Positions 11,629-62,123 of a stretch of 64,000 bases of DNA are shown here, piece after piece (position 1 is the stretch's first letter; each line of letters begins with the position of its first letter). Location: NCBI GenBank assembly GCA_016841965.1, contig JAEANN010000017.1:62001-126000 (forward strand), in the 5' to 3' direction. This DNA comes from Candidatus Roseilinea mizusawaensis. GTDB taxonomy: Bacteria > Chloroflexota > Anaerolineae > J036 > Brachytrichaceae. A model generated the notes under the pieces. It ran no database searches. It worked only from the letters and a program-made list of their open reading frames with translations, and was not told the origin of the DNA. The position numbers were made by a program, and so were the translations under genes.

Positions 11629-12771
11629 TCACACAGCCGACCAGTTTGCGCCATCTGACGCCACACACGCATAGATGTTGGGGGTGCGACCGGTGCGGCG
11701 CGGATATTCGGCGGCAATCCTGTCGGCCAGGCTAGCCGCTGCGTCGTCGTTCACCAAGGCGATAGCGCAGCCACCGAAGCCGGCCCCGGTCATGCGCGCG
11801 CCATGCACGCCCGGCGTGTCACGGGCAATATCCACCACAGCGTCCAGTTCTGCGCTGCTCACCTCATAAAGATCGCGCAGGCTGTCGTGCGATTGGTTCA
11901 TCAGCGCGCCGAAGGTGGATAGCTCGTTGCGTCGCAACGCAGCCACGGCATCGAGCACGCGCTGATTTTCGTGAATGACATGTGCGCAGCGCCGGGCAAT
12001 CACAACGGGCAATTCATCGCGCCGGCGCTCAAACGCTTGCACACTGACGTCGCGCAGACTGCGCACGCCCAGCAGCCGCGCGCCTTCTTCACATTCGCGC
12101 CGGCGTTGGTTATACGCGCTGCCGGCCAGTGTGCGCGGCGCAGTTGTGTCCACGACCAGCACGGTCACGCCGGCAGGCAGCGAGGCCAGCTCATACTCCA
12201 GCGAACGGCAGTCGATGAGCAAGGCGTGGCCGGCTTTGCCCAGTGACGAAATGAACTGATCCATGATGCCGCACTTGACGCCGACGAATTCGTTCTCGGC
12301 GCGTTGAGCCAGCCGGGCTGCACGCACCCCGTCGATTGATTGGCCGGATGCTGCGCAAAATGCCATCACAGTTGCCATCTCGGTTGCGGCAGAGGAGGAT
12401 AGACCACTGGCGATTGGCACATCGCCGCTCACCACCCCGTCGAACCCGCGCAGAGCCAGCCCGTCGTTTTGAAGCATCGCTGCGACACCGCGCATGTAGT
12501 TGCTCCACGGTGCTGCCGGGTCTGGACGGATTGCGTCCAGTGAAAACATCGATTCTTGCTCAAAGTCGGCGGAATACAGCCGCACAATCCCATCCTGCCG
12601 GGCAGCGCCGATGATCTTTACATCCCGGTCGATTGCCATCGGCAGCACGAATCCTTCGTTGTAGTCGGTGTGTTCGCCAATCAGATTCACCCGCCCCGGC
12701 GCGCGGGCGGCAAACACAGCGGCACAGTCATAGCGCGAGCGAAATAGGGCTTGCAGGTCGGATAGCTTCAT
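11629..12771 (-). CDS. galK: Galactokinase
   Basis: A GHMP kinase of 380 aa, close to the family's usual length, converting galactose and ATP to galactose 1-phosphate in the Leloir pathway. It has the galactokinase signature GRVNLIGEHTDYNEGF near 27-42, the ATP loop GLSSSAA near 126, and the C-terminal glycine motif GARMTGAGFGG. The ATG at 12771 is preferred; the TTG at 12810 would only add an unconserved extension. galT and galE are not in the window. A 7-bp hairpin (11611-11628) lies just past the stop but has no T-run. Confidence 0.95.
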   Translation of the reverse strand: MKLSDLQALFRSRYDCAAVFAARAPGRVNLIGEHTDYNEGFVLPMAIDRDVKIIGAARQDGIVRLYSADFEQESMFSLDAIRPDPAAPWSNYMRGVAAMLQNDGLALRGFDGVVSGDVPIASGLSSSAATEMATVMAFCAASGQSIDGVRAARLAQRAENEFVGVKCGIMDQFISSLGKAGHALLIDCRSLEYELASLPAGVTVLVVDTTAPRTLAGSAYNQRRRECEEGARLLGVRSLRDVSVQAFERRRDELPVVIARRCAHVIHENQRVLDAVAALRRNELSTFGALMNQSHDSLRDLYEVSSAELDAVVDIARDTPGVHGARMTGAGFGGCAIALVNDDAAASLADRIAAEYPRRTGRTPNIYACVASDGANWSAV

Positions 12772-12816: not shown

Positions 12817-13047
12817 TTAACCCCGCAGCAGGCCCAAAGATACGTAGGCGATGATCATGCCGATCAAGACCATGCCCAATCCATAGATGCGATACACCCC
12901 CTGGGCAAATCTCTCGCCACGCTTTTGAGCCAACAGCTTTCCAAATGGGTCATATCGTATTAGCTCATCTAGAGGACGCCGCAGGGCTGCAAAGCCGTTG
13001 ATGAGCAAGATCACTGCAAAAACCAGACCGACAACGCCACCAATCAT
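12817..13047 (-). CDS. Small two-helix membrane protein
   Basis: A 76-aa protein with hydrophobic helices at residues about 2-20 and 54-74 and a charged loop between them (RYDPFGKLLAQKRGERFAQG). GATAAT at 13055-13060 on the minus strand ends exactly seven bases before the ATG, so it is probably leaderless. No family recognised; coding character is good, and it lies upstream of galK in the same direction. Confidence 0.65.
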   Translation of the reverse strand: MIGGVVGLVFAVILLINGFAALRRPLDELIRYDPFGKLLAQKRGERFAQGVYRIYGLGMVLIGMIIAYVSLGLLRG

Positions 13048-13250: not shown

Positions 13251-14312
13251 ATGCACTGGGAAAGGCTTTCCGAAGACGTCTACGTTTTTACTAGCGATCG
13301 CTATGCGCAGGTGACGGCCAGCTTGATCGTGTCGGGCACGGTGGGCGTCATGATCGATACGCTACCCTTCCCCGAAGAGACGGCCCAGATTGCCCTATTT
13401 GCGCGCCGGCGCTGCCCGGACGGCGTGCGTTATGTGATATACACGCAGCATCAGGCAGACCACACGTATGGCGCTTTTCTGTTCCCTAAAGCCGAAGTGA
13501 TTGCGCATGCTGCCTGCCGCGAGATTCTCATCGACAAGGGGTATAAGGCTCTGGAGGTGGCCCGGCAGCAGAGCCGCGAACTCGAGATCATCCGGCTGCG
13601 CTTGCCAAGCATTACGTTCACCAGCGGCGTGTTTGCCCTAAAGCTGCCCGGCAAGACACTGGAAATTTTCCCGTCGCCTGGCCACACGGTGGATTCAGTG
13701 TCTGTAATTTTGCAGGAAGAGAAGATTTTATTTGCCGGCGACACGATCATGGCAATCCCAACGATCGGCGATGGGGATATTGATCAGTTGCGCGCCTCTA
13801 TCGAGGCGGTGGCTGCCATGCCGCTCGAAACTATCGTTCAGGGCCATGGGGAGATTATCCTGCGTGGCGAGATCAAGGATAACCTTCGACGTAGTCTGAA
13901 CTACCTCGAAAACTTGCAGACCAAAGTGCAGAAGCTGGTTGAAGCCGGCGGCACGCGCGAAGAGGTTCGTCGCATCACGCTGGAATCGTGCGGTCTGCAA
14001 CGTGTGCTCTTGAGCGGTGTCGTCACCCAATTGCACCAGGCCAATCTGATGGCGCTGTATAACCGGTTGACGGCTGCGCTGAGACCCGCCCAGCTACCTG
14101 TGGCTGCTGCGGCAGTTCAGACAATAAGCCGGCGCGCCGGTGCCCGTTCTACCGCCAGCGCACCTAAAGACCGCAAGGCTGCCCCGAAAAAGCCGGCGCG
14201 TCCGGCAAAATCTAAGCCGGCTGCCCCCAAAAAGCCACGCACCAAGGCCGCGACACAGTCACACTCCAAAAAGGCTGCGTCGACGTCAACGGAGGAACGC
14301 CCTGACGCATGA
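13251..14312 (+). CDS. Metallo-beta-lactamase-fold protein with degenerate metal site and basic tail
   Basis: A 353-aa protein. The MBL core (residues 1-255) has the right order of motifs: D36 strand, metal loop, PGHTVDS with H145, FAGDT with D164, and QGHGE with H199. The usual HxHxDH loop reads TQHQADH (65-71), so both first-site histidines appear as Gln while D70 and H71 remain. Two-metal hydrolysis is therefore doubtful; a one-metal or non-catalytic role is possible. The last 60 residues are Lys/Ala/Pro-rich like a histone H1 tail and may bind nucleic acid or polyanions. Its TGA overlaps the next ATG (ATGA). Confidence 0.85.
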   Translation: MHWERLSEDVYVFTSDRYAQVTASLIVSGTVGVMIDTLPFPEETAQIALFARRRCPDGVRYVIYTQHQADHTYGAFLFPKAEVIAHAACREILIDKGYKALEVARQQSRELEIIRLRLPSITFTSGVFALKLPGKTLEIFPSPGHTVDSVSVILQEEKILFAGDTIMAIPTIGDGDIDQLRASIEAVAAMPLETIVQGHGEIILRGEIKDNLRRSLNYLENLQTKVQKLVEAGGTREEVRRITLESCGLQRVLLSGVVTQLHQANLMALYNRLTAALRPAQLPVAAAAVQTISRRAGARSTASAPKDRKAAPKKPARPAKSKPAAPKKPRTKAATQSHSKKAASTSTEERPDA

Positions 14313-15946
14313 GCGTCTTTCAAGCAGCCCTGATCGCGCTGTGTTACGCCTTCTCGCAGTCTGCCTTTAACGCCGGCCTGGGAGGCTATATTCTCTCCCA
14401 GCCCCTTGTGGCGGGAACGATTGTCGGCGTGCTGTTGGGCGATCCGCTGGCCGGCGCCGCGCTGGGCGGCACACTGAATCTGAGCGCCCTCGCGTTGAGC
14501 CAGTTGCGGCTGCGCTTTGGCCCGGACATTGCGCTGGCCGGCTATGTGGGTATTCCCATCATGTTGTTGAACGGCGTCGCTGTTGACACTCCTCAGGCGC
14601 TGGCTGTTTTTGGCGCGCTGGCCGTCTTCAGCACGCTGCTGGTGTTCGTGCGGGGTGTGTTCAACAGCGTGCTGGCGCACTGGGCCGACTATTTCGCCGA
14701 GCGTGGCGATGCTGCGCTAGTTGCTTTCATCAACGTTGGGCCATCTCAAGTGTGGCTGTTCGTGATCACGTTTATTCCTGCGTTTGTCCTGTTGCGGTTT
14801 GACATGCAAGCGCTGGTCAGCGTGACCGACGCGCTGCCGTTGTGGGTGCAGACCGCGTTGCGTTTGAGCCAGCATCTGTTGGCGGCTTTGGGCATTGCTA
14901 TGAGCGCGCGCGTACTCGCGCGAGGAAGCAGCGCGGCTTATTTCGTGCTGGGTTGGCTTGCGGCCCATGCCTTCGGGCCGGCCCCGCTCACCTTGCTGGG
15001 CGCCAGCATTGCTACCATTCATGCCTTTGTTGCGCGCAAACGCATGGAGCCGGCCCAGGACACCCTGGCGACAGATGCGCTGCCATCCGATCAGCTCGAA
15101 CCAGAGGACTCGCGCGCGCCTTCGCCGCTTGTCCCTGCTGATCTGCGCGTGTCTTTCATGCTGTGGCTGTTCTTTCACAATGCCGCGCTCAACTTTGAGC
15201 GCTTCCAGAACATTGGGCTTGCCACGGCGCTGGCCCCCATCGCACGCAAGCTGTATGCCACGGCCGAGGAGCGCGCGGCCTGTCTGCGCCGTCATCTTGC
15301 GCTGTTCAGCACCGAGTTCTCGCTTGGAGCAGCGGCTGTGGGCGCTTCAGTGGCCCTGGAAGAGCGGCGCGCTATGGGGGATGCGATCAACGAAGCGGAG
15401 TGTGTGGGTGCAAAGACCGGCGCGATGGCTGCCCTGGGCGTCACCGGCGATGCGCTGGTTCAGGGCGTTGTGACAGCTTTCGCCGTCGCTATAGGGGCCA
15501 GCCTGGCTCGACAAGGCAATTTGCTTGGGCCATTCCTGTTTGTGGTCTTCGAGGCAACGGTAGTGTTGTGCGTTGCCTATGCCAGCTTTCAGTTTGGGTA
15601 TACCCAGCTTCGACGCGTCGCGGCATGGGCGCGGGCGAATGAGTGGTTGCGGGCCGGCCTGTTTGGCGCGGTGCGCCTGGGCGCCTTCGTGCTGGGAGGG
15701 CTATTGCTCACCTATGCGCCGCTGCACCTGCCGGGCGGGGCGATCATCGAGATCGATGGCGCTCGGATTGCGCTACAGCACGCGGTGTTGGACCGAATCA
15801 TGCCGAACATGATTCCGTTACTCGTTGTCCTGGCTCTGTGGTGGCTGTTGCGCTATCGCAACACCAGCCCGATGGTCTTGCTGGGCGTTTTGATCGCGCT
15901 GGCCTTTGCGATATGTGGCGCGCTCAGTCTGGTGGGTTGGCTGTGA
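14309..15946 (+). CDS. Fused mannose-class PTS EIIC-EIID permease
   Basis: A 545-aa membrane protein. Residues about 1-250 resemble the sorbose/mannose EIIC (SQSAFNAGLGGYILSQPL, GGTLNLSALALSQL) with many membrane helices. Residues about 280-545 resemble EIID, starting FFHNAALNFERFQNIG and containing EERAACLRRHLALF and a GAMAALGVTGDALVQG glycine region. In known systems these are two separate proteins working with EIIA/EIIB phosphocarriers. No EIIA, EIIB, HPr or EI gene is visible here. It is translationally coupled to the MBL gene (ATGA) and to the next gene (GTGA). It could be a phosphorylation-independent transporter. Confidence 0.85.
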   Translation: MSVFQAALIALCYAFSQSAFNAGLGGYILSQPLVAGTIVGVLLGDPLAGAALGGTLNLSALALSQLRLRFGPDIALAGYVGIPIMLLNGVAVDTPQALAVFGALAVFSTLLVFVRGVFNSVLAHWADYFAERGDAALVAFINVGPSQVWLFVITFIPAFVLLRFDMQALVSVTDALPLWVQTALRLSQHLLAALGIAMSARVLARGSSAAYFVLGWLAAHAFGPAPLTLLGASIATIHAFVARKRMEPAQDTLATDALPSDQLEPEDSRAPSPLVPADLRVSFMLWLFFHNAALNFERFQNIGLATALAPIARKLYATAEERAACLRRHLALFSTEFSLGAAAVGASVALEERRAMGDAINEAECVGAKTGAMAALGVTGDALVQGVVTAFAVAIGASLARQGNLLGPFLFVVFEATVVLCVAYASFQFGYTQLRRVAAWARANEWLRAGLFGAVRLGAFVLGGLLLTYAPLHLPGGAIIEIDGARIALQHAVLDRIMPNMIPLLVVLALWWLLRYRNTSPMVLLGVLIALAFAICGALSLVGWL

Positions 15947-16695
15947 CTCGCACTTCGACCCGGCCACACGCCGGCCAGGACTATCGCACCACCTACACCG
16001 ATCTGCTGCACGCGCTCAATCAGCCTGACTGCCCGGTGTGCCGGCTGGTTAATCAAGCTGTGCGCCAGCACGTGGATGTGTTTCTCTACGAACAACTGTT
16101 GGTTGTAGAAAGGCGCGATGAAATCCGCGCTGCGCGTGGGTTTTGCTCGATCCATGGGGCCATGCTGGTCGGCGGGCATGGTCGGATGCTCGGCGCGGCT
16201 ACGTTGCATCAGGACATCCTCAACGACGTTGTGCGACAGATTGACCGGGCTATGCGCCCCCCAATGTCTGCGCTGAAGCGTGCCTTTGCGCTTGGGCTGC
16301 GCGCTATGCTGCACAACGTCATGCGCGCCGTGCGCCCTCGCCGTATGTGTCCCTTGTGTGAATATGAGCGACGCCAGGAAGGCATTGTGCTGCGCGCGCT
16401 CGTCAACGATATCAATGATCCGGCGCTGCGCAGCGCGTTCGAGCGATCGGCCGGTCTGTGTCTGCCGCATTTGCAGATGGCCGTTGTTTTGCCGGATGTG
16501 CCGCCTGGCAATCAGGCTCGCCTGGTTGAACTCGAACGGGCCATTCTGGCCGGCCTAAAAGCAGAGCTGGACGAATATCTGTCCGCGCGCAATGCCTCAT
16601 ACGAGGGCGGGGCGATGGGCGCAGAGGCCGACGCGCCGTTGCGCGCCGTGCGACTGGTGTCGGGGCGCGTCGTGCATTCAGACGGGCGCACGTGA
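15943..16695 (+). CDS. CPxC-motif protein, DUF6062-like
   Basis: A 250-aa soluble protein starting at the GTG that overlaps the EIIC-EIID stop by four bases. It has two repeats of the same layout: CPVCRL near residue 30 with CSIHG near 67, and CPLCEYE near 133 with CLPHLQ near 173. Each could bind a zinc ion or Fe-S cluster through Cys and His. This resembles the DUF6062-type proteins seen in Chloroflexota and Firmicutes, of unknown function. Coupling suggests a joint role with the permease and MBL protein. Confidence 0.75.
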   Translation: MTRTSTRPHAGQDYRTTYTDLLHALNQPDCPVCRLVNQAVRQHVDVFLYEQLLVVERRDEIRAARGFCSIHGAMLVGGHGRMLGAATLHQDILNDVVRQIDRAMRPPMSALKRAFALGLRAMLHNVMRAVRPRRMCPLCEYERRQEGIVLRALVNDINDPALRSAFERSAGLCLPHLQMAVVLPDVPPGNQARLVELERAILAGLKAELDEYLSARNASYEGGAMGAEADAPLRAVRLVSGRVVHSDGRT

Positions 16696-25898: not shown

Positions 25899-27059
25899 AT
25901 GAAAAGAATCGGAGTATTGACCGGCGGTGGCGACGTGCCCGGCCTCAATCCTTGCATCAAGGCGCTGGTGAATCGCGCCATCGACGAAGGATACGAAGTC
26001 CTGGGCATTCGCAAGGGATGGGGCGGCTTGCTGTATTGCAATCCGGATGATCCGGCCAGTGTCGCCCATTACATTGTGCCGCTTGACAAACAACGTGTGC
26101 GCACCGTTGACCGCACCGGCGGCACGTTCCTGCACACCAGCCGCACCAACCCGGGCAAGGTGCGTTCGCATGAGGTGCCCGATTTCCTGCGCGAAGCCGG
26201 CGCCAAAGAGGATGACAAAGGCCGCTTTGACTTCACGCCGCACGTGCTGCGCGTCCTTGACAAGCTCGGCATCGACATTTTGACCCCCATCGGCGGCGAC
26301 GACACCCTGAGTTACGCCGAGCGGCTGTATCGCGAAGGCTTCCACGTCGTCGCCATTCCGAAAACGATGGACAACGACGTGTACGGCACGGACTATTGCA
26401 TCGGCTTCTCCACTGCCGTCACGCGCAGCGTCGAGTTTATCCACCAGTTGCGCACCAGCATTGGCAGCCACGAGCGCATCGCCGTCATCGAGTTGTTCGG
26501 CCGCAATAGCGGCGAGACCTCTCTTTTGTCGTCCTACCTGGCCGGCGTCGATCGCGCCATTATCTCTGAGGTGCACTTCGACCCGGAGAAACTGGCCCGC
26601 TTCCTGCTGGAGGATAAAAAGCGTAACCCCAGCAATTACGCCATCGTTACCATTTCCGAGGGCGCTCAGATGATCGGCGGCAAGGTGATCGAGTATGGCC
26701 AGGCTGACGCCTACGGTCACATGAAACTTGGCGGCATCGGCCAGCTTACCGGCGAGGCGATTAAGAAGATTACCGGCGAGGATATCCTGAATCAGCAGCT
26801 TAGCTATCTGATGCGCTCTGGTGCGCCGGACAGCCTTGACCTGATGGTGGCAGTGAACTACGCTAACCTGGCGGTCACGCTGATCAAGCGCGGCGCTTCA
26901 AACCGCATGGTCGCATTGCGCAACGGCACCTACACCAGCATCCCGATTTCGACCATCATGCAGGGTGTCAAGCGTGTTGATGTGGACGAACTGTACGACA
27001 GCGAGAACTATCGACCACGCGTGCGGCATGTTGAGGGCAAGCCGATGTTCCTGTACTAG
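25899..27059 (+). CDS. Phosphofructokinase, PPi-type signature
   Basis: A 386-aa PfkA-superfamily enzyme converting fructose 6-phosphate to fructose 1,6-bisphosphate. The donor-specificity residues match PPi-dependent enzymes: GGDD at 132-135 (ATP enzymes have GGDG) and PKTMDND at 154-160 (ATP enzymes have PGTIDND). The active-site aspartates of TMDND remain. It is longer than classical ATP-PfkA (about 320 aa), as PPi/mixed-type enzymes often are. The next gene is an ATP-type paralogue with the same first residues, MKRIGVLT. Confidence 0.92.
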
Positions 27060-27151
27060 GACACGATATGGGGCGGGTAGCGCGCCCTGCGCCTCAGGCG
27101 CGCGCCCGCTTACTGATTTCCTGTCTCCTGACTTCTGAAGAACGAATTCAC

Positions 27152-28126
27152 ATGAAACGAATCGGCGTTCTTACCAGCGGCGGCGATGGCCCTGGTCTTA
27201 ATCCGTGCATCCGCGCTGTTGTGCGCATGGGCATTCACCTGGGCATGAGCGTAATGGGCATTCGACGCGGCTATGCCGGGCTGATTGCCGGTGAAATTGA
27301 GGAGCTGACACTGCGCTCGGTGGGCGGGATTCTGGGGCGTGGCGGCACGTTTCTCAGCACATCGCGCAGCGCCGAGTTCACCACGCCCCAGGGTCAGCTC
27401 ACTGCCCTGCGCAATTTGCATCGCTTTGACATCGAGGGCCTTGTCGTGATTGGCGGCAATGGCAGCCTGACCGGCGCGCAAAAGCTGCACGAACAGGGGG
27501 TCAAGGTGATTGGCCTGCCGGGCACAATTGACAACGATCTGGGCGGCACTGATATCACGATTGGCGTTGACACCGCGCTGAACACCATTCTCGACGCCGT
27601 TGACAAGATCAAGGACACCGCCTCATCGCACAATCGGGCGTTCATCATCGAGACGATGGGCCGCAATTGCGGTTACCTGGCGCTGATGGGTGCACTGGCC
27701 GGCGGCGCTGAGCTGGCCCTGATCCCAGAAAACAACGACATCTCACTGGAGGCGGTCAGCAATCTCTTGAAAGATGTCTATGTGCGCGGCAAGAATCACT
27801 GCATCATCGTAGTGGCTGAAGGCTGGAAGCCCGGCACAGCGGCGTTGGCGGCTTACCTGAATGCTCAGAAAGAGCAACAAGGATTTGAGGTGCGCACGAC
27901 CGTTCTGGGGCATGTGCAGCGCGGTGGCAGTCCGACTGCCTATGACCGCATTCTCGCGACGCGGCTGGGCGCTGCTGCCGCCGAGGCGCTCTACGCCGGC
28001 CGCTCCGGCGTGATGATCGGCTGGATTGACGGCAAGATCGCCGAGACCCCCCTCGAAGAAGTGATCAAGCCGACCAATAAAATCAAACCCGACGTGTTGC
28101 GCCTGGCGCGGGTGATGGAGCGATAA
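27152..28126 (+). CDS. ATP-type 6-phosphofructokinase
   Basis: A 324-aa PfkA-type enzyme. It has GGNGS at 101-105 and PGTIDND at 123-129, the glycines that admit ATP; Asn replaces the usual Asp of GGDGS, which helps hold Mg-ATP in E. coli PfkA. METMGRNCGYLA-type and GHVQRGGSPTAYDR segments are intact. The ATG at 27152 is supported by homology to the preceding paralogue; the frame from 27068 adds a spurious leader. It may share a transcript with the PPi-type enzyme 93 bases upstream. Confidence 0.92.
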   Translation: MKRIGVLTSGGDGPGLNPCIRAVVRMGIHLGMSVMGIRRGYAGLIAGEIEELTLRSVGGILGRGGTFLSTSRSAEFTTPQGQLTALRNLHRFDIEGLVVIGGNGSLTGAQKLHEQGVKVIGLPGTIDNDLGGTDITIGVDTALNTILDAVDKIKDTASSHNRAFIIETMGRNCGYLALMGALAGGAELALIPENNDISLEAVSNLLKDVYVRGKNHCIIVVAEGWKPGTAALAAYLNAQKEQQGFEVRTTVLGHVQRGGSPTAYDRILATRLGAAAAEALYAGRSGVMIGWIDGKIAETPLEEVIKPTNKIKPDVLRLARVMER

Positions 28127-58910: not shown

Positions 58911-58938
58911 GCAAAATCCGCGATCCAAGATCGTCACA
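58911..58938. repeat. 7-bp-period tract inside the dehydratase operon
   Basis: Words gcaaaat, ccgcgat, ccaagat, cgtcaca keep phase in the 33-base gap between the two dehydratase genes and run over the stop codon of the large-subunit gene. Confidence 0.5.
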
Positions 58939-61186
58939 CATCTGGCTCCCAGTCGAACCACAATTCAGTCGGCGGCTGTTCACGCACCGCTTCGGTCTCG
59001 CGCCGGTGCAACAGCGTTGTCTTGACGATCAGCCTCAGCCGCGCCCAATTGTCCACCTGCACCGGCACGGGCGTCACGATCATGCCCCTGGCATAGCGCG
59101 CCGCATTCTGGCCGATTTGCTCGTAAGTTTGCAACGTCAAGCTGGGGGACTGGGGAAACAGCTCCAGGTTGTGCAAGCGGGGGAGGCCGCGCTTTTGGAT
59201 CATGGCCGTGCCGCGCGATTGCAGGCCGATGGCAATGCCCGACCCGCTCAACTGCGCGCCGGCATGCGCGATAGCGGCCAGATCGGAGCTGTGATACACC
59301 TTGACCACACGGCCAAACAAGCCCTCTTTGGCGATGCCGGTCAAAATGGCGGCCAACACGTCGTCATGCGCAAGCCCGCCGATGGTGCGCGTGAGCGTAA
59401 CCCCAAACGCCGGCCCGACAGCCACCACCACTTCGGGATGTGTCACAACTTGCGCCGGCCCGATCTCGCGCAGCGTTGACAACGGCTGGCCGATGTTGCC
59501 GTCGATAAAATCGCGCGGCGAACGGGCCTGTGGCACGCGCTGGATTTCGTCCCAGCGCGCCCCTGCAACGCGATAGCCGCTGCCGGGGCCGCGATAGTCG
59601 TTTGGGGTGTTGATCGCGCTGCGCACCTGAAAGCGCGCAGGGCCGTCGCGGTGTGACACAAAAATGGCCGACGGTTGCAAGTAGTCGCCGGCCACGCGCT
59701 GCCGGCCCATCTCCAGCACATGCCCAGCAATATCCTCGAAGCCGCGCTGCTGCAACGCGCGCGCGATGTCAAGCATGGTGATCGGACTATTCAGAAAGCG
59801 GTCGGCAGCAGCCAGGTCGGCGGGGACATCGCGGGCCGGCATGTCGTCGCTGCTGTGGCCGGTCGCGGCAGCCTCGACTTCCTCATCGGTGATTGTTGGA
59901 AGCCCTAATTCCGCAAACACAGCCTGAACCGCTTGCGCCGCCCGGCGGCGAACGCACAGTGCGTCGTGTTCACTAACCGGGCGCAGGCCGGCGTCCAGTT
60001 GCATGTCGCGTTGCAGGATATTCCAGTCGTCAAAATCCTCGGCGTCGAAATTGCCGCCGCCGAACAGGTTGTCGCGACGCGGCACAGCGCTGTAGCCAGA
60101 GGTGATGAAGTCTGTGCCGGGAATCAGTTGCAGCATGAGCTTGGCTGTTTTGCGGATGGGCGAGTGCGACGCCAGCGCATCGTTGCCCGAGGCGACCTCC
60201 AGGCCGAGCATGGCTGCAAGCAGATTTTCGGCCAACACCGCGCGCACGCCGCCGGGCAACGACTCGGGCAGCGCAATGCAGGAGATCGACCCGTTTTGAA
60301 CCCCCTGGCTGCCGGCGCCGCGCGTCACCATTAGGCAACGCGCTTCCAAATACAACATCGAGCATCCCTCGGCATGGCCCATCAACGCTTCTGACCCTGT
60401 GCCTGAAGTGAAACGCACCTTGACGCCGCGCGAGGCATAGGCCGCAGCCAGGAACGCCTTGGACCAGGGTGTGTCGTCGCCGTCGACAAAAGCGCGCTCT
60501 GTGCCATACACAGACAGTGTTTCGGCGTAGCTGGTCAATCCCTTCAGCGCCAGGCGCAGGCCAAGCGACTCTTCGACCGAGCACTGGGTGAGCGCGCCGC
60601 CGGCCCCAGTTTGCGCGCCGATCAAAATGGAGAGCGCGTTGAAGGGCGCGTAGCGCGCAATGCCAACGGTTGTTTCGATCTCGGCAAAGCCGCGCAGGGC
60701 GGCCTCGGCTGCGTCAGCGGCCAACAGGGCAGGATGATGGCGCCGATTGGTGACATGGGCTTGATTGGCCGGCGCAGCGCGCTGACGCATTTTGGCCAGC
60801 CCCATCATCATCTCCAACACGTTCATGTGTGAGACGATGTCCACCAGTTTGGCCGGCGTGCAGCCGCCGGCCAGGCGCTGAACCTGCGCGCGCGGGACGT
60901 TGATATCGACCAGCATGCGCGCCAAGTCCAGCGACGGTGTCGCCATCGCTTGGTCGGCCACAGATAAGTCCAGGCCATGATCGGCGATGAACACATCGAG
61001 CATGTCAAACTGATCGCGCGGCTTGCCGTCCATCTCGATCACGCGCCCGCCTTCGATGCGCAAACTGGGGCGCGGGTCATGCGGGCTGTCGGCCACAGCT
61101 AAGCCGGCTTCGGGCCACGGCTCGACATACGTCTCTTTGTTGATGTCGCGCTCGGCCAGAATTGCAAAGCGTTTGGATCGATTCAT
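58934..61186 (-). CDS. B12-dependent diol/glycerol dehydratase, fused large and medium subunits
   Basis: A 750-aa fusion. Residues about 1-560 match the large subunit (PduC/DhaB1): Q142 and H144 in NQAHVTN, E171 in EIETT, E206 in QCSVEES, Q298 in GVQNGS, D336 in GNDALAS and S363 in ITSGYS. These correspond to the active-site residues of Klebsiella diol dehydratase. Residues about 580-750 match the medium subunit (PduD): AVGPAFGVTLT, SGSGIAIGLQSRGTAMIQ and LELFPQSPSLTL. The usual PduD N-terminal extension is mostly gone. It converts 1,2-diols or glycerol to aldehydes with adenosylcobalamin. No reactivase or microcompartment shell genes are seen. Confidence 0.93.
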   Translation of the reverse strand: MNRSKRFAILAERDINKETYVEPWPEAGLAVADSPHDPRPSLRIEGGRVIEMDGKPRDQFDMLDVFIADHGLDLSVADQAMATPSLDLARMLVDINVPRAQVQRLAGGCTPAKLVDIVSHMNVLEMMMGLAKMRQRAAPANQAHVTNRRHHPALLAADAAEAALRGFAEIETTVGIARYAPFNALSILIGAQTGAGGALTQCSVEESLGLRLALKGLTSYAETLSVYGTERAFVDGDDTPWSKAFLAAAYASRGVKVRFTSGTGSEALMGHAEGCSMLYLEARCLMVTRGAGSQGVQNGSISCIALPESLPGGVRAVLAENLLAAMLGLEVASGNDALASHSPIRKTAKLMLQLIPGTDFITSGYSAVPRRDNLFGGGNFDAEDFDDWNILQRDMQLDAGLRPVSEHDALCVRRRAAQAVQAVFAELGLPTITDEEVEAAATGHSSDDMPARDVPADLAAADRFLNSPITMLDIARALQQRGFEDIAGHVLEMGRQRVAGDYLQPSAIFVSHRDGPARFQVRSAINTPNDYRGPGSGYRVAGARWDEIQRVPQARSPRDFIDGNIGQPLSTLREIGPAQVVTHPEVVVAVGPAFGVTLTRTIGGLAHDDVLAAILTGIAKEGLFGRVVKVYHSSDLAAIAHAGAQLSGSGIAIGLQSRGTAMIQKRGLPRLHNLELFPQSPSLTLQTYEQIGQNAARYARGMIVTPVPVQVDNWARLRLIVKTTLLHRRETEAVREQPPTELWFDWEPDV

Positions 61187-61223
61187 GCCACACCCCTGGG
61201 CGAACCCGGCAGCGCCGGCAAGC

Positions 61224-62123
61224 TTACACAATACAATCGCCGTCTGGCAGCTTGGATGTGTTTGGGGCGAAGTCGGCCATGCATTGGGCCGGAATGCGAA
61301 TAGGCCGGCCGCTGGCCAGATCAACCCAAACCGCCACGGTGTTCACACGGGCAAGCCGCGCGCCATCGGCGATGCGGGTGAGCAGGTAGTGGCGTGTCGC
61401 GGTGGCGCGCTTGACCTCGGAGACCCAGGTGGCGATCTCGATCTCGTCGCCCAGCAACGCCGGCTGCAAATACTCGATCTGATGTTGGCGCAGCAGCATG
61501 CCGAATCCTGCGGCGGTCATGCGCGGCACAGACCAGCCGTGCGCCGCTAGCACCTCCATGCCGCACGCCTCGACATAGGTCATGTACATGATGTTGTTGA
61601 CATGTTGGGCGGTGTCGATGTCGGTCCAGGAAACGCGCCGGCGCAGGCGAAACACGCCGGGCGGCGGGGGGGCCGGCTCTGGAAAGGGTTGGCGCGGTGA
61701 AACCTCAGGGGGCGGATCGTTGCCCATAAAAGCAGCGACCATCTCGGCCGGCACGCGCACTGGCCGGCCGGTCTCGGCATCCACAAACACCCAGTCGGTG
61801 ACGGCGCGCGCCACAAGTTCCCCGCTCATCACCGAGCGCATCTCGTAGGCGCGACGCGACAACACGCGGTGGAAATCCATCACCCATGTCTTGACCTCGA
61901 CCGAGTCGCCGTAGCGCAGCGGGCGCAGATATTCGACATCGGTGCGGCGCGTCAACCAGTTGCGGCGCATCGCCTGGTAACGCGCAAAATCGTAGCCGAC
62001 GGCAGCCGAAGCATCGAAGGCGGCTTCCTGCATATAGCGCAGGTAGTTCACGTTGTTCACGTGGCCGTAGGCATCGCATTCGTAGTAGCGCACGCGAAAC
62101 ACGCGCGTGTAGACAGGCGGCAT
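61224..62123 (-). CDS. Double-hotdog acyl-CoA thioesterase-like protein
   Basis: A 299-aa protein of two 4HBT-type hotdog domains. The first has YYECDAYGHVNNVNYLRYMQ near 11-30 and the second SWTDIDTAQHVNNIMYMTYV near 172-191; each has the Asp and His typical of the 4-hydroxybenzoyl-CoA thioesterase group. The domains are joined by a Pro-rich linker (PEPAPPPPG). The ATG at 62123 has AAGGAAAG upstream. It lies just before the diol dehydratase in the same direction and could hydrolyse acyl-CoA made from its aldehyde product; that is inference. Confidence 0.87.
   Translation of the reverse strand: MPPVYTRVFRVRYYECDAYGHVNNVNYLRYMQEAAFDASAAVGYDFARYQAMRRNWLTRRTDVEYLRPLRYGDSVEVKTWVMDFHRVLSRRAYEMRSVMSGELVARAVTDWVFVDAETGRPVRVPAEMVAAFMGNDPPPEVSPRQPFPEPAPPPPGVFRLRRRVSWTDIDTAQHVNNIMYMTYVEACGMEVLAAHGWSVPRMTAAGFGMLLRQHQIEYLQPALLGDEIEIATWVSEVKRATATRHYLLTRIADGARLARVNTVAVWVDLASGRPIRIPAQCMADFAPNTSKLPDGDCIV

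Follow-up and report, generated by a model that had tools for sequence, protein, structure and literature searches.

The operon described here lies in a 64,000-nucleotide stretch (the window) of a 137-kb contig from Candidatus Roseilinea mizusawaensis, whose assembly totals 3.86 Mb and is rated 99% complete. Three genes on the forward strand make up the operon. The first (13251..14312) encodes an MBL-fold protein of 353 amino acids (Pfam Lactamase_B, 3e-21), the second (14309..15946) encodes a fused mannose-class EIIC-EIID protein of 545 amino acids (EIICD) with EII-Sor (6e-36) and EIID-AGA (7e-55) domains in a single chain that belongs to an MBL-linked clade, and the third (15943..16695) has a GTG start and encodes a 250-amino-acid DUF6062 protein (Pfam, 3e-12). 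The MBL and EIICD genes overlap by four bases at ATGA and the EIICD and DUF6062 genes by four at GTGA, which confirms the coordinates, the overlaps, and the EIIC-EIID fusion given in a preliminary description of this DNA. Judging from the overlaps, the three gene products might be made in a fixed ratio. Permeases of the mannose-class PTS normally depend on a chain of proteins that pass phosphate. Neither EIIA nor EIIB adjoins the operon in the window, so this permease stands outside a PTS unit, as had been described.

Two genes on the reverse strand diverge from the operon. Nearest to MBL is a gene for a 76-amino-acid membrane-like protein of no known family (12817..13047), followed by a galactokinase (GHMP kinase) identified by Pfam (11629..12771). 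The small membrane-like protein is kept only in near relatives (genera g1 and g4), and a Pfam search with a relative's copy returned no match. The position of the galactokinase is conserved in all seven g1 and g4 loci whose contig extends to it. Because this arrangement is found in one clade and reflects common descent, it counts as a single event. Anti-phage defence models gave no match, and a promoter scan, uninformative here, returned no sigma-70-like site. Farther along the window, two tandem phosphofructokinase-like genes (25899-28126, forward strand) and a long open reading frame resembling fused diol/glycerol dehydratase subunits (58934-61324, reverse strand) were recognized by eye.

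Conservation of the operon was assessed in 28 genomes of the order, from records named Thermoflexales or Candidatus Roseilinea. The operon-type EIICD is present in 24 of these, with 42 to 90% identity to the window copy (the window itself excluded), and the MBL gene is found directly upstream in 23 of the 24. In the sole exception, G014, only 157 bases of contig precede EIICD, and MBL is found at the end of another contig. The distance from MBL stop to EIICD start was -4 to +6 bases at 20 of 21 measured loci in the order; the outlier was G023, which has a frame-shifted EIICD in an otherwise intact operon. The MBL-EIICD pair is a tightly linked two-gene unit of the order, and its translation is probably coupled. 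In nine loci of genus g8 (L049-L056 and L063), an AguB-like amidase is encoded upstream of the pair, and downstream lie genes for an MFS carrier and for a YfcE-like phosphodiesterase.

The three genes were also considered as one fixed unit, and this was rejected because DUF6062 adjoins EIICD, on its downstream side, in just 8 of the 24 genomes, drawn from three genera. The three-gene order seen in the window is therefore upheld in relatives for the MBL-EIICD pair but, for DUF6062, only in these eight genomes; DUF6062 is a facultative neighbor of the pair. All eight DUF6062 members match PF19538, a family of unknown function, and the window protein scores over the cut-off. It contains two CxxC...CxxH units (C30/C33/C68/H71 and C136/C139/C173/H176). 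Its predicted fold is of low confidence (pLDDT 62) and matched no solved structure.

The EIIC and EIID membrane domains (PF03609 and PF03613) were found in 20 of 20 operon EIICDs. Relatives of EIICD outside the order were sought in 400 Chloroflexota genomes and found in 17, from which 18 loci were read. EIIB is close by at 16 of these loci, in most cases with EIIA too, and none of the 18 has MBL beside EIICD. In the EIICD tree, a fully supported branch separates the operon proteins from 22 EIIB-linked or reference proteins, including E. coli ManYZ. Comparison with these 22 proteins, at least 90% of which agree in 44 columns, revealed that 27 of these columns are kept in the operon clade and 13 are lost, while 17 new positions are fixed in at least 19 of the 20 operon EIICDs. 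Among the losses is the EIID signature LMGPLAGxGD(T/P)...P, replaced, for example, by AMAALGVTGDA or IMAGLEAIGAT. The NTxP segment and EIIC glycines 67 and 68 are lost or replaced, with Arg in place of G67 in 19 of 20 proteins, and proline 390 is found in none of the 20.

An AlphaFold2 model of EIICD (pLDDT 87) had ManYZ (7dyr) as its best solved match, with TM-scores by target length of 0.76 against ManY and 0.72 against ManZ. Operon EIICD and E. coli ManYZ (PDB 7dyr/6k1h; PF03609 and PF03613) thus have both domains and the membrane fold in common, but the operon protein is fused in one chain and is without the EIID signature GPLAGxGD and the conserved prolines. The 7dyr paper describes an elevator mechanism in which the sugar is clamped between two core domains (PMC8021565). 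The operon cluster also differs from a mannose-class PTS in being without EIIA and EIIB, the latter absent from most of the genomes, and in having an MBL gene in their place.

Purifying selection acts on all three genes, and dN/dS for MBL and EIICD is ∼0.07 to 0.24 in every pair, including genomes that lack PTS parts. Together with the lost motifs and the newly fixed residues, this looks like a change of function, not decay. A view of EIICD and MBL as decaying remnants of a PTS operon since lost might be suggested by the degenerate state of the conserved motifs, by the EIICD frameshifts in G023, and by the four genomes of the order without this EIICD. We regard this as highly improbable, given the low dN/dS in genomes with and without PTS parts, the 17 new residues, and an EIICD that is intact in the single-contig genome G022. 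The G023 frameshifts (locus L063) may reflect sequencing error or recent decay; this is a 5-contig assembly in which indel errors are possible.

The MBL protein has an altered metal site, as the preliminary description had noted. Its motif is T65-Q66-H67-Q68-A69-D70-H71 (TQHQADH), so that both site-1 His residues of HxHxDH are Gln, while D70, H71, H145, D164, and H199 are kept. The site-1 His residues are missing from all 25 MBLs analyzed inside the order, in which residue 66 is Q, G, or S and residue 68 is Q or E, and all 25 keep the site-2 ligands D70, H71, and H199, the bridging D164, and H145. Outside the order, an orthologue matched in 45 of 48 sampled Anaerolineae genomes, with 38 to 49% identity over ∼270 residues and one full-length match per genome, and the seven canonical ligands are complete in 31 of 32 distinct sequences. 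The one exception, from an Anaerolineae genome outside the order (L218, G376), has lost part of site 1 (TNYHGDH, with Ser at 145) in a way that resembles Asn116 of subclass B2. The order MBL therefore differs from the class-wide orthologue in its loss of the site-1 His residues, confined to this order, in its basic tail, and in its linkage to EIICD.

This tail comprises ∼78 residues in the window protein and is rich in Ala, Pro, and Lys. In 17 of 17 aligned members the tail has 59 to 139 residues and a net charge of +14 to +29. In genus g2 (L194 and L195; G001 and G004), an acidic stretch, DDDEDEFDDFDEDDLD, follows the basic part and ends the tail.

The nearest NCBIfam families to the MBL protein are SoxH-related and fall far below their cut-offs. 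Similarity to subclass B2 enzymes (CphA) is detectable by profile, and both have a changed site 1. Subclass B2 works with a single metal at site 2, which indicates that an MBL of this kind can be active (PMC2422870). The B2 pattern, however, is Asn116/His118/Cys221, whereas the window MBL has Gln66/Gln68/Asp164. The order MBL is changed at both the His116 and the His118 positions, and its site 2 is Asp/His/His with Asp164, unlike B2. Because B2 keeps His118 and the order MBL does not, the catalytic analogy is loose.

MBL also occurs apart from the permease. It matched in all 28 genomes of the order (the G002 copy is a fragment at a contig end), including G001, G002, G004, and G013, which have no operon EIICD, so MBL also serves some purpose independent of this permease. 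Since the altered site is found in G001, G004, and G013, the change in MBL is today independent of EIICD. With orthologues lacking EIICD both in the order and across the class, an MBL that exists only with EIICD was rejected. For the same reason, and because DUF6062 is facultative, the proposal that the permease has its own processing proteins in a fixed trio is not supported. The neighbors of MBL outside the order were searched for a common gene as a clue to function and yielded family-specific neighbors only.

The phosphoryl transfer proteins were sought in the window genome, and EI, HPr, EIIA, and EIIB were all found, each over its Pfam cut-off and on contigs other than that of the operon. 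HPr is fused to EI in a single-copy protein of 804 amino acids on contig C48, and EIIA-man (C45) and EIIB (C31) are likewise present in one copy each. A second EIICD is encoded directly behind EIIB on C31. A window genome without a PTS was therefore rejected: a complete mannose-class PTS is spread over three contigs, apart from the operon. At the C31 locus (L010; G000, 70000-88000), the genes after EIIB and the second EIICD encode a conserved membrane protein without a known family and an amidohydrolase-like protein, an arrangement conserved in g1 and g4.

Across the order, searches covered HPr, EIIA-man, and EIIB-man, and the same searches were positive in E. coli, B. subtilis, and L. lactis as controls. 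HPr was found in 16 of the 28 genomes and missing in 12; its donor form in the window genome is the HPr-EI fusion. EIIA-man was found in 11 genomes and missing in 17. EIIB was found in nine, only in g1, g4, and g6, where it adjoins the other EIICD, and these are the same nine genomes that hold the second EIICD paralogue (9/9). They include the window genome and seven other g1 and g4 genomes. No EIIB-man was found in 16 of the 24 genomes that carry the operon EIICD, and in 11 of the 24 none of HPr, EIIA-man, or EIIB was found. The 11 are G003, G012, and all nine genomes of genus g8, including the single-contig genome G022.

These distributions bear on whether EIICD functions as a regular mannose-class permease, served by EIIB, EIIA, and HPr-EI from elsewhere in the genome, with MBL an unrelated cotranscribed gene. 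The three proteins in the window genome are what such a permease would need. EIIB, however, is encoded next to a different EIICD, the paralogue, and its occurrence across genomes follows that paralogue and not the operon copy; 11 genomes carry the operon EIICD without HPr, EIIA-man, or EIIB; and the EIID signature is lost. We therefore consider it unlikely that EIICD works as an ordinary PTS permease. The phosphorylation-free transporter put forward in the preliminary description is favored by the 11 related genomes, while the complete mannose-class PTS of the window genome tells against it. That description had named such a set elsewhere in the genome, co-regulated and combined with neighbors not conserved in relatives, as evidence against its proposal; this applies only in part, since the set is there but the MBL neighbor is conserved.

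We propose that the operon EIICD is a PTS-derived elevator permease that works without phosphoryl transfer and is coupled to the rebuilt MBL, an explanation that we consider probable, though far from secure. Its best-supported step is that the operon EIICD is independent of EIIB phosphorylation in most hosts. Because EIICD is kept where HPr, EIIA-man, and EIIB-man were not found and always lies behind the rebuilt MBL, its substrate is probably moved in a different way. With the elevator-type fold of ManYZ retained, EIICD would carry a polar substrate across unphosphorylated, through facilitated diffusion or exchange, making phosphorylated EIIB unnecessary. Counting against this explanation, the g1 and g4 genomes hold an EIIB that could serve both EIICDs there.

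EIICD could instead be a nontransporting membrane anchor or sensor that controls the activity of MBL or of DUF6062. The loss of the conserved EIID signature is in line with such a role, as is the unvarying link to MBL, a soluble protein with a basic tail, but the whole membrane fold is kept, with its best match in ManYZ 7dyr, described as occluded, and we judge an anchor or sensor to be improbable.

In the proposed phosphorylation-free permease, the basic tail may hold MBL near anionic lipid or another polyanion, and MBL may use the single-metal site 2 to bind or act on the compound that EIICD transports or on the resulting product. Alternatively, MBL may regulate the permease. With phosphorylation gone, the gradient would be maintained as the cell metabolizes the substrate. 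The galactokinase of g1 and g4 hints weakly at a free hexose there, for example galactose, to which ATP would donate a phosphate once the sugar is inside the cell.

Whether MBL itself replaces phosphorylation is a separate matter. That the pair represents a permease departed from the PTS for which the single-metal MBL supplies the driving or trapping step is an idea that we consider rather unlikely. In a specific chemical form of the proposed explanation, EIICD would admit a free ester, lactone, or similar compound, and its hydrolysis by the single-metal MBL would trap the product in place of phosphorylation. The two-gene coupling fits such trapping, as do the site-2 ligands, which all 25 MBLs retain, and the g8 flanks with their AguB-like amidase and MFS carrier. 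However, MBL orthologues occur without EIICD across the class, and hydrolysis is uncertain because both site-1 His residues are lost. Trapping by this chemistry is rather doubtful.

The open-access papers searched contained no on-point report of a PTS permease without EIIB, of a Chloroflexi PTS, or of DUF6062. Incomplete PTSs with missing components have been described in Brucella and other proteobacteria (PMC2937029, PMC5632650). Those systems have phosphoryl proteins without a permease, and the 11 genomes here are the mirror image, a permease without the phosphoryl proteins. A PTS permease appears to have departed from the PTS and to have become linked to an MBL that, within the same order, had its metal site rebuilt.

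Uptake coupled to phosphorylation is the defining trait of PTS permeases. A mannose-class permease maintained by selection without HPr, EIIA-man, and EIIB-man would show that PTS permeases can become plain transporters, and it offers a natural system for finding the residues that make ManYZ-type elevators depend on phosphorylation. Likewise, MBL, which occurs across the class with a canonical metal site except in this order, where the site was rebuilt, is a natural mutation series for such a change.
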